The notes under the pieces: model-generated | The model's input: only the letters and a program-made list of their open reading frames with translations | Told to the model about the DNA's origin: nothing | Databases searched by the model: none | Translations under genes and position numbers: made by a program | DNA from: an uncultured Cohaesibacter sp. | GTDB taxonomy: Bacteria > Pseudomonadota > Alphaproteobacteria > Rhizobiales > Cohaesibacteraceae | Direction of reading: 5' to 3' | Length of the DNA stretch: 64,000 nt | Assembly (NCBI RefSeq): GCF_963676485.1 | Contig: NZ_OY781114.1 | Location: 2,930,501 to 2,994,500 of the forward strand | Part shown: one piece after another, positions 11,756 to 14,606 of the stretch | Numbering within the stretch: position 1 is the first letter of the stretch | Layout of the letters: each line of letters begins with the position of its first letter

Positions 11756-13348
11756 ATGCACATTGTGCACTTCTTTGCCGTCTTGCGCCTTTTGTTGTTC
11801 CGTGAAACTATACGGGTCATGGCCCAGATAGATGATCTCTTGCTTCTTATTCCGAACCGTTCTCTGGATTGTTTGATTGACGAAGATTTTGGCAAATTGC
11901 GGCCGATTTTTTCAGATCAGACAGAACCGGAGGATGCCATTCTGCTTGATATGTTCCCTCTGCCGCTGACGCGCTCGGGGCGGCTTTTGTTTGCATCCGA
12001 AGGGCGCCTGCGATTGCTCGACAGGGATGGCGCCCTGATAACGCAAAAGGGCTCGCCAGAAGGGGGCTTTGTACGCGATCTGCACAAGGGACCGGTGCGC
12101 AAAGCCTTAAAGGGGCTGCCTCGGTTGCGGGCCCTCATGCCCATCTGTCGCCTGCAATGCAGCTTCTCGCAGATGGCTTTGGTTGATGAGGAAGGGAAGA
12201 TCCACATAAGGGTGCAACTCATCGAGACACGCATGGTTGGCGGTGCCGATGGTCTGATAGCCTTTTTGCGTCCGGTGCGCGGTTATGAAAAGGCTCAGGC
12301 GCGGGGGCGCGAAAAGTTTTTGGAGCTTGGTGGCGGCGAAACCGGGCTGGAAGCGTTCCTCTCGGGCCTTTGTATGGGATTCCCTGCAGGCGTACTCAAA
12401 CCCGAGATCGCGATTGGCCAGAATGAGCCGGCTTTTGATGTGGCCACGGATATTATGGCCGCCTACCTGCCCGCGGCTCGCGTCAATGAGAAGGGGATCG
12501 TCAATGATATAGACACGGAATTCCTGCATGACTATCGCATTGCCTTACGCAAGATCCGCTCCGTGCTCAGTCTGTTCAAGGGTGTTTATTCCGAGGCGCA
12601 GACACGGGATCTGAAGCAGCGCTTTTCGGCGCTTATGGCAAAGACGGGCCAGCTCAGGGATCTTGATGTCTATCTGCTGAACAAGAAGGATTTCTTTGCG
12701 CTTATTCCCCAGGAGCTGCATGGTGGCGTCAAGGAGATGTTCGCGCTGTTTTTGCGAGATCGGAATGAGGCCGCCGTGGAACTTGCGGACCATCTGATCA
12801 GTGAGGCCTATCAGGCAGAGATGCAGGTGCTTTCCGATTTGCTTGCTGCTCCGGAACGGTTGGAAAAAGGGCCCAATAGCGATCTGGGCGCGCATGACTA
12901 TGCCTGCCGTCTCATCTGGAAACGCTATCGCAAAATTTGCAAGATTGCCAAAAGCATAGATGCAGAGAGTGACGACGAAGATGTTCATGCGCTGCGCATC
13001 CACTGCAAGAAGCTGCGCTATCTGATGGAGTTTTTCGCTCCTTTGTTTCCGCGCAAGGATGTCAAGCGGTTGATCAAGTCGATGAAGCGCTTGCAGGACA
13101 ATCTGGGAACGTTCAATGACTGCTCCGTGCAGATCGAGACGCTTTCCGGCTTTATGGAAAGTCACAAGTTTCGTAGTAAGGCCACGCAGATGAAAGTGGC
13201 CAAGAGTGTGGGAGCTCTGATTGCCATTCTGCATCAGCGGCAGGCAGAAGAAAGAGCGCGTGTGGTGGAGAATTTTTCTCGATTTGACAGCGAAGCGACC
13301 CGTCAGACCTTCAGGACGCTGTTCAAAATGCGGGAGGGGGAAGAATGA
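11756..13348 (+). CDS. CHAD domain protein with CYTH-like N-terminal region
   Basis: A 530-residue protein. Its C-terminal half is a CHAD domain, helical with conserved histidines, seen in LHDYRIALRKIRSVLSLFKG and in HALRIHCKKLRYLMEFF. CHAD domains are known to bind polyphosphate and target proteins to polyphosphate granules. The N-terminal 220 residues lack ExExK but have a strand pattern (ILLDMFPLPLTRSGRLLF, later VRKALKGLPRLRALMPICR) that recalls a degenerate CYTH fold; this is inference. The ATG at 11756 has GAGGA only two bases away. ATG 11819 (MAQIDDLLL) is an equally possible start. The stop overlaps the ParA gene by four bases. Confidence 0.85.
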   Translation: MHIVHFFAVLRLLLFRETIRVMAQIDDLLLLIPNRSLDCLIDEDFGKLRPIFSDQTEPEDAILLDMFPLPLTRSGRLLFASEGRLRLLDRDGALITQKGSPEGGFVRDLHKGPVRKALKGLPRLRALMPICRLQCSFSQMALVDEEGKIHIRVQLIETRMVGGADGLIAFLRPVRGYEKAQARGREKFLELGGGETGLEAFLSGLCMGFPAGVLKPEIAIGQNEPAFDVATDIMAAYLPAARVNEKGIVNDIDTEFLHDYRIALRKIRSVLSLFKGVYSEAQTRDLKQRFSALMAKTGQLRDLDVYLLNKKDFFALIPQELHGGVKEMFALFLRDRNEAAVELADHLISEAYQAEMQVLSDLLAAPERLEKGPNSDLGAHDYACRLIWKRYRKICKIAKSIDAESDDEDVHALRIHCKKLRYLMEFFAPLFPRKDVKRLIKSMKRLQDNLGTFNDCSVQIETLSGFMESHKFRSKATQMKVAKSVGALIAILHQRQAEERARVVENFSRFDSEATRQTFRTLFKMREGEE

Positions 13349-14094
13349 AGATCATTGCCTGCTATTCAAACAAGGGCGGAGTTGGCAAAACGGCAACATC
13401 GGTCAATTTGGCATATGCTTTGGCTGATGCTGGCAAGAAGGTGTTGCTCTGTGATCTGGACCCTCAGGGGGCTTCCAGCTTTTACTTTCGTGTCAAACCA
13501 TCAAAAAAGCTGACGGATGAACGTTTCTTCAAGGATGTGGAGCGGTTTACCAAATCCATTCGGGGCAGCAACTATGACAATCTCGATATTCTGCCTGCCA
13601 ATATGAGCTTTCGGAATTTCGATGTATTTCTTGCGCGCATGAGAAACAGCCGTTCGCGCTTGAAGAAAGCCTTGAAGGCGGTCAAGAAGGACTATGATGT
13701 CATTTTGCTTGATTGTCCGCCCAATATTTCCACGCTTTCGGAAAGCGTATTCAAGGCCTCTGATGTCATTCTGGTGCCGGTTATTCCCACCACCTTATCC
13801 CAACGTACCTTCGAGCAGCTGGTGGACTTCTTCAGGGTCAATAAGATTCCGCTCAAGAAGCTGTCGGCCTTTTTCTCCATGGTGCAGACGGTCAAGTCTC
13901 TGCATGCAGACCTGATGGATGAATTGTCCGGGCAGTATAAGAAGCAGTTTATTTCAGCGCATATCCCCTTTGCGTCGGATATCGAACGGATGGGCGTGCA
14001 TCGTGCTCCGGTTCTGGCGAGCGCTCCGAAAAGCTCGGCTTCCAAGGCCTATAAGGCTCTTTATCGCGATGTGAAAAAGAAAGTGGATTTGTAA
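13345..14094 (+). CDS. Orphan ParA/MinD-type ATPase
   Basis: A 249-residue deviant Walker ATPase. The P-loop is KGGVGKTATS at residue 10, with the signature lysine before GG. Walker A' is DLDPQGASS and Walker B is VILLDCPPNIS. The family positions cargo (plasmids, chromosomes, protein clusters) by ATP-dependent dimerisation on the nucleoid or membrane. There is no parB or parS-like element nearby, so this is not a standard partition locus. It overlaps the CHAD gene before it and the CYTH gene after it, so tight co-translation is likely. The cargo is unknown; CHAD-bound polyphosphate is my hypothesis. Confidence 0.92.
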   Translation: MKIIACYSNKGGVGKTATSVNLAYALADAGKKVLLCDLDPQGASSFYFRVKPSKKLTDERFFKDVERFTKSIRGSNYDNLDILPANMSFRNFDVFLARMRNSRSRLKKALKAVKKDYDVILLDCPPNISTLSESVFKASDVILVPVIPTTLSQRTFEQLVDFFRVNKIPLKKLSAFFSMVQTVKSLHADLMDELSGQYKKQFISAHIPFASDIERMGVHRAPVLASAPKSSASKAYKALYRDVKKKVDL

Positions 14095-14606
14095 TGAGCA
14101 GCCGCCTTATCGAAAAAGCCGCTGCGGATTTGGAAATCGAACGCAAGTTTCTGGTAGCCGAGCTGCCGGATCTGGCTGGCCTCAAGAGCGTGGACGTGGC
14201 GCAAGGCTATCTGACACATTCGGACGATTCTGTCGAAATCAGGCTGCGCAGGAAAGCCTCAGGTGAGACCGCGAATTTCTTCATGACCCTCAAGTCTGAT
14301 GGAGCCCTTGAGCGCAAGGAGATCGAGGTTGCTGTGAGCGCGGAACAGTTTGAAAGCTTTTGGCCGGCAACGGCTGGGCGTCAGATTGAGAAAACACGCT
14401 ATGTGGGGGCGCTCGACAATGGGCTTCACTATGAGTTGGATGTCTTTCATGGCGGGCTGAAGGGGCTTTTGCTGGTCGAGGTGGAATTTCCTTCCGTAGA
14501 GGCTGCCAACCGGTTCAAGGCTCCGGCATGGTTCGGTGAAGATGTGACCGGTAACAAGGGATACAAGAATAAGGCCTTGGCTGTGAAGGGGATGCCCCAG
14601 CCGTGA
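14094..14606 (+). CDS. CYTH domain protein, likely triphosphatase
   Basis: A 170-residue CYTH (triphosphate tunnel) protein. The diagnostic ExExK motif is present as LEIERKFLV near residue 14. Strands with alternating charged residues follow, such as VEIRLRRK and ERKEIEV, up to KGYKNKALAVKG at the end. Bacterial relatives hydrolyse inorganic triphosphate, and other CYTH members use nucleotide triphosphates. It is translationally coupled to ParA by a one-base overlap (TAATG). Catalytic residues look complete, unlike the N-terminal region of the CHAD partner. Confidence 0.9.
   Translation: MSSRLIEKAAADLEIERKFLVAELPDLAGLKSVDVAQGYLTHSDDSVEIRLRRKASGETANFFMTLKSDGALERKEIEVAVSAEQFESFWPATAGRQIEKTRYVGALDNGLHYELDVFHGGLKGLLLVEVEFPSVEAANRFKAPAWFGEDVTGNKGYKNKALAVKGMPQP

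Follow-up and report, generated by a model that had tools for sequence, protein, structure and literature searches.

A conserved CHAD-ParA gene pair is a candidate machinery for spreading polyphosphate granules through the bacterial cell

What does a ParA-type ATPase do in an operon that otherwise encodes a CHAD protein and a CYTH phosphatase? The question is raised by three overlapping genes in a 64,000-nucleotide stretch of DNA from an uncultured Cohaesibacter sp. (hereafter the window). A preliminary description of this stretch read the genes as a device that positions or segregates polyphosphate bodies and turns over their products, an interpretation that our analysis partly supports. The reading we prefer, and consider rather probable, is that the operon specifies an McdAB-like system for the positioning and segregation of polyphosphate granules.

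The operon comprises three frames on the plus strand (11756-13348, 13345-14094 and 14094-14606) with successive overlaps of 4 bases and 1 base, as originally described. It is located on the large contig C1, the Cohaesibacter chromosome, with galE, galT and galK upstream and genes for CoA-transferase subunits downstream. The initial naming of the three products also held when they were compared with Pfam, which returned CHAD (4e-57), AAA_31 (ParA-type; 1.1e-42) and CYTH (7e-5). The CYTH match coincides with the curated cut-off (23.2 bits), and the call is secured by a family profile match to PDB entries 2fbl and 3typ at about 1e-68. One detail had to be revised, namely the start of the CHAD frame at 11756. 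Since CHAD orthologues align from Met22, and the frame of a sister genome (G014) is closed just before the equivalent methionine, the gene most likely starts at 11819. An alignment of the upstream region revealed the palindrome TGCACATTGTGCA at 11757..11769, which is exact in the window and in the Cohaesibacter genome G006 and near-exact in four other Cohaesibacter genomes.

The CHAD gene (11819..13348, plus strand) encodes a 509-aa protein with a TTM/CYTH-like N-terminal domain and a long CHAD domain. The N-terminal domain, about residues 7-170 (11837..12328, plus strand), was recognized by the beta strands of an AF2 model (pLDDT 90.7 for the whole protein) and by Foldseek matches to 5a60 (3e-7) and 2gfg (3e-3, above the 0.001 line). 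No ExExK motif occurs within the first 40 residues in any of the 34 orthologues, so this degenerate half is probably not catalytic. The CHAD domain (12452..13144, plus strand) matches the profile of CtCHAD (6qv7) at 1e-84 and the fold of 6qva with a TM score of 0.93 by target, with further fold matches to 6qv7 and 3e0s. The structure of CtCHAD, to which the domain is closest, has been solved in complex with polyphosphate. Lorenzo-Orts et al. (PMC6537752) mutated its residues His253, Arg256, Arg260, Arg296, Arg418 and Tyr419. The equivalents of these six contact residues, assigned by residue counting on the CtCHAD profile alignment to 6qv7, are invariant in 34/34 orthologues. The outer patches of the domain are less strictly kept (30 to 34 of 34), and one position is Arg in 23/34. 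With its CHAD fold and conserved polyphosphate contacts, the protein has the domain fold and binding residues of the CHAD phosins YgiF and CtCHAD, and its CHAD domain is expected to bind polyphosphate. In contrast to the window, none of the 27 control loci of other, YgiF-type CHAD proteins that were read has such an adjoining ParA. One of them (L167) shows a 21-bit ParA match on a frame that overlaps the CHAD gene. Elsewhere in the window genome, at G000:C1:3994833-3995144, a 379-aa frame gives a further CHAD match, weak at 25.9 bits; comparable weak matches turned up in most Cohaesibacter genomes that were searched.

Related loci were collected by querying GTDB genomes with the window ParA, and the best 80 of 107 were used as the sample. 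The CHAD gene lies directly upstream of parA on the same strand in 79/80 of these loci (best 80 of 107), with L103 as the sole exception, and the four-base overlap seen in the window recurs in 38 of the 71 loci measured. The best 80 of 107 loci belong to Alphaproteobacteria (47), Gammaproteobacteria (11), Desulfobulbia (9) and Betaproteobacteria (8), with single loci in Desulfobacteria, Myxococcia, Kiritimatiellia, Actinomycetes and an unplaced Proteobacteria MAG; 31 named genera are represented. The actinomycete locus (L044), on a contig labelled Enemella, holds an alphaproteobacterial-looking copy and is probably a contamination. Apart from CHAD, ParA and CYTH, each neighbour cluster is found in at most 16 of the best 80 of 107 loci, so the conservation is not plain synteny. 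As a control, we examined 19 loci of non-orthologous ParA proteins with 1.5 kb flanks; none of them contained a protein related to the CHAD or the CYTH of this operon. The conserved neighbourhood on which the first interpretation depended is thus present in related genomes.

The pair also co-occurs across genomes. Among 18 Cohaesibacter genomes, ParA (E <= 1e-129) was detected in 11 and CHAD (E <= 1e-55) in the identical 11; three of the remaining seven carry a CHAD of another kind (about 1e-39 to 1e-40) and the rest have only weak matches. Among 289 Alphaproteobacteria, ParA was found at E <= 1e-60 in three genomes, and CHAD proteins of this subfamily (>= 300 bits) in the same three, adjacent to it; the next-best CHAD scored 170 bits, and 54 other genomes, from which the 27 control loci above were read, had a lesser CHAD match. 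In two of these three genomes CYTH is convergent with the pair, still adjacent. Distances among ParA and among CHAD proteins from 85 loci are correlated (r 0.84), a value reached in 0/2000 permutations (best 0.42), to which shared descent contributes.

The linkage has a boundary. In 61 Pseudomonadota genomes with the ParA threshold set at E <= 1e-40, 30 loci were read, and CHAD of this type was found within 1.5 kb in five, the window included. When two samples were pooled, it adjoined 5/5 ParA genes scoring at least 285 bits (L118, L119, L120, L148 and L149) and 2/27 of the weaker matches (L125 and L131). At eight of the 25 CHAD-less loci, a Pfam scan of large neighbours yielded no CHAD, a search that a remoter CHAD could escape. 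On the ParA tree, the CHAD label requires six changes versus a shuffled mean of 36.1. We conclude from these comparisons that pairing with CHAD characterizes this ParA clade and a few branches close to it and does not extend to all of its relatives. The 25 loci (L121-L147 except L125 and L131) represent a sister ParA group without an adjoining CHAD of this type; several have neighbours in common, including what we take from its sequence to be a truA-like gene. Plasmid ParA matches at 40-43% identity were found in Marinobacter, Pontibacter and Halomonas, and no CHAD is annotated beside the match in the Marinobacter and Pontibacter plasmid regions.

The third gene (14094..14606, plus strand) encodes a 170-aa CYTH/TTM phosphatase. 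Its ExExK motif is kept in 15/15 sequences, with R50, R52, K67, E76, E78, K100, R102, E114, D116, E129 and E131 invariant, so that both the motif and the tunnel residues of CYTH/TTM tripolyphosphatases are present. The closest structure by profile is NE1496 (2fbl; 2e-68), the tripolyphosphatase NeuTTM, with which the window protein has fold and catalytic residues in common. Among the best 80 of 107 loci, CYTH follows the pair in 42/80, Nudix occurs in 7/80, PPK1 lies near the operon in 7/80, and at least one of the three is near 52/80; the CYTH, Nudix and PPK1 counts are lower bounds because some contigs end early. The window genome itself encodes PPK1. This ParA is also found on six Paracoccus plasmids. 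RHH (ribbon-helix-helix), CHAD, ParA, CYTH and NUDIX genes stand in a row on Paracoccus plasmids, and on NZ_CP065895 the operon adjoins pstCAB-phoU-phoB. Four Paracoccus plasmid regions were read, each with 4 to 16 kb of flanking sequence, and pst-phoU-phoB was present in this one. The proposed link to polyphosphate was borne out by the CHAD contact residues, the NeuTTM-like CYTH and the PPK1, Nudix and Pho genes nearby, and we regard it as strong. Of the trio sought across genomes, the CHAD-ParA part stood as the invariant unit of the operon, while CYTH proved not constant but optional. Other proteins were noted near some operons: members of the Nudix cluster with N-termini like those of SixA histidine phosphatases within a few kb at L035, L041, L067 and L068 (His_Phos_1 plus NUDIX by Pfam at L068), a protein that combines PhoU and APH-kinase domains after CHAD-ParA at L131:2268-3731, and a His_Phos_1 protein encoded by the next gene after the pair at L120.

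The ParA protein (249 aa; 13345..14094, plus strand) has a mean column identity of 72% over 20 diverse rows. It carries the deviant Walker A motif KGGVGKT with the signature lysine and the catalytic Asp; K10, G11, G12, G14, K15, T16, D37 and D39 are invariant in the 20 rows and V13 is kept in 90% or more. Its AF2 model (pLDDT 78.4) stops three residues past the final helix, and no MinD-type membrane-targeting tail is present. The nearly invariant F48 aligns with Phe52 of HpParA, which contacts a ParB arginine (PMC11229316). After the IP motif, where Soj rows have R or K (IPRN, IPKS, IPRT), this clade has the nearly invariant Phe209 instead of the basic DNA-binding residue, so this site lends no support to nucleoid binding; other conserved basic residues are R220, K107 and K108. 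This replacement is consistent with an alternative that we consider unlikely, namely that ParA docks or assembles polyphosphate machinery, in the manner of the ParA-like BcsQ of cellulose secretion, and together with CHAD and CYTH controls granule size, nucleation or turnover. BcsQ structures indeed follow Soj in the Foldseek list (ranks 11-15), and polyphosphate turnover enzymes are regular neighbours. However, the best matches in both sequence and fold are partition ParA/Soj proteins, and the RHH partners of many relatives are typical of partition ParA proteins.

An RHH gene of 50-70 aa with a lysine-rich start is found just before CHAD in 34/80 loci (best 80 of 107) and appears decayed in three more (L062, L070 and L081). 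Three of five RHH proteins passed RHH_1 in Pfam and two matched RHH families below the cut-off; matches to solved structures were weak, with ParG among them (E 0.72). At L053, the place of RHH is taken by a divergent small protein that is longer and likewise rich in lysine. A palindromic site with the core TGACGTCA was first exposed by a Pho-box scan, and this core occurs within 450 bp upstream of CHAD in all 34 RHH loci (32/33 by count; the sites of L040 and L045, which that count overlooked owing to misdrawn CHAD frames, make up the total). It occurs in two of the 41 loci with RHH absent or decayed (L062, decayed, and L082), at a background expectation of 0.006 per 480 bp. The exact extended pattern TGACGTCATNANNTCA was found in one place per genome in 8/8, always at the coordinates of this operon; a reversed control pattern matched once across the eight genomes. 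A Pho box upstream of the operon was itself rejected, with a mean best score of 9.55 versus 9.06 in mononucleotide shuffles, a score of 9/14 in the window and no convincing site.

Within Cohaesibacter, G006 and G016 keep both RHH and its site. No TGACGTCA was found in the upstream regions read from the window and eight other Cohaesibacter genomes, and an RHH profile search of 13 Cohaesibacter genomes gave no match in 12, the window genome among them. The stretch at 11803..11822, which has the CHAD start codon inside it, is a probable decayed RHH operator; the stretch aligned with it in G006 and G016 contains TGACGTCA, and the RHH gene comes next. We conclude that the window lineage lost RHH. 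The preliminary remark that ParA stands without parB or parS is accordingly correct for this lineage only, given that relatives encode RHH and a palindrome. On the ParA tree, RHH state changes 15 times by parsimony, with at least four changes forced and eight loci unscored. Because RHH changes repeatedly and CHAD remains in 79/80 loci (best 80 of 107), RHH appears to be a dispensable regulator, most likely an autoregulator, and CHAD the constant partner. RHH as an obligate ParA partner was rejected as a general rule.

We consider it improbable that the operon serves the regulation and metabolism of phosphate without any spatial role, with ParA and RHH tuning transcription and polyphosphate being handled by CHAD and CYTH. 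Plasmid ParA proteins can co-repress and the RHH site is single, private and promoter-proximal, yet CHAD-ParA persists where RHH and its site were lost. A type Ib-like DNA partition cassette (ParA with RHH) that carries CHAD and CYTH as chance cargo is very improbable: RHH centromere-binding partners of ParA proteins are described (ParG, omega, SegB) and this ParA occurs on plasmids, but the window copy is chromosomal, its genome has another chromosomal-type ParA (279 aa) and a plasmid RepA-type protein (403 aa), the exact extended pattern has a single promoter site per genome in 8/8 rather than iterated centromere repeats, and RHH is often missing where CHAD is not.

In the preferred granule-positioning system, the CHAD protein would coat the granule by way of the domain that binds polyphosphate and would serve as the cargo adaptor, in the role of ParB or McdB. 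ParA, as an ATP dimer, would use the nucleoid as a scaffold and be released by the CHAD-coated granule; granules would then spread or follow ParA gradients and be shared at division. Nucleoid binding, ParA-CHAD contact and granule movement are here predicted from the ParA family and the gene linkage. CYTH, and in relatives also Nudix, may trim short-chain products at the granule, and in many relatives RHH on the promoter palindrome would limit expression, a layer the window lineage is without. We count in favour of this system the order of CHAD before ParA amid varying neighbours and their exact co-occurrence, the invariant polyphosphate contacts with PPK1, CYTH, Nudix and pst-phoU-phoB nearby and a PPK1 of the genome's own, and the Soj-like fold with F48 and no MinD-type tail. 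Counted against it are Phe209 and the ends of the CHAD orthologues, where the AF2 model has low-confidence stretches of about four residues and lacks the long, flexible and basic tail by which ParA is activated in other systems; RHH does have a short basic tail but is missing from about half of the loci. A further point against it is the report, as told in PMC6537752, that Ralstonia showed no apparent phenotype when other CHAD proteins were deleted. More tentatively, a partition cassette of ParA, RHH and operator may have been re-tasked to a polyanion that is not a nucleic acid, with polyphosphate replacing the plasmid, CHAD replacing the centromere-binding protein and RHH kept as an autorepressor until dropped. 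If so, polyphosphate granules would have an ATP-driven partition system, the first of its kind, which plasmids would carry from one bacterium to another along with the trimming enzymes.

The ParA-CHAD pair is a concrete candidate for the way in which bacteria space and inherit their granules, simple in its genetics and present in genera that can be cultured (Cohaesibacter, Ruegeria and Paracoccus). The ParA family would gain a new candidate cargo, and CHAD proteins a possible function beyond sticking to granules. In the text available to us of a 2025 review (PMC13052382), AlgP alone is named for granule positioning, its ATP dependence is given as unknown, and the granule-positioning proteins of Caulobacter are described as not identified. 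The words polyphosphate and CHAD are absent from the main text of a 2023 ParA/MinD survey (PMC10241942), and we found no ATP-driven polyphosphate positioning in the open-licence PMC literature (preprints not covered).

Several known systems resemble the operon in part. The preliminary description knew of no system of this composition; parA-CHAD adjacency is in fact printed for Acidithiobacillus (PMC10892726, PMC6416229), in a folD-ppk-parA-CHAD cluster whose parA adjoins ppk and a gene for a CYTH-CHAD protein. In the parts of these papers available to us, the cluster, alike in gene neighbourhood, is read as copper resistance or cAMP synthesis and no positioning role is proposed. AlgP of Pseudomonas aeruginosa also spaces polyphosphate granules evenly, but it is described as a histone H1-like tether with no ParA. 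Type Ib systems (ParF-ParG, delta-omega) and archaeal SegAB are similar in their small ParA without HTH, their RHH protein, whose N-terminal tail is basic, and their palindromic site, whereas here the CHAD gene lies between RHH and ParA, the promoter-proximal site is single in each of the eight genomes, RHH is frequently lost, and ParA is Soj-sized rather than ParF-sized. McdAB, which positions carboxysomes, likewise combines a ParA-type ATPase gene with an adjoining gene for a cargo-binding protein and acts on a non-DNA cargo; in contrast, the putative cargo protein of the window belongs to the polyphosphate-binding CHAD proteins and has no relation to McdB, carboxysomes play no part, and a nucleoid gradient is a prediction. 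By this analogy, the operon is best read as working like McdAB while belonging neither to McdAB nor, as regards the window, to type Ib partition. Its genes make a good candidate for the machinery that spreads polyphosphate granules through the cell.
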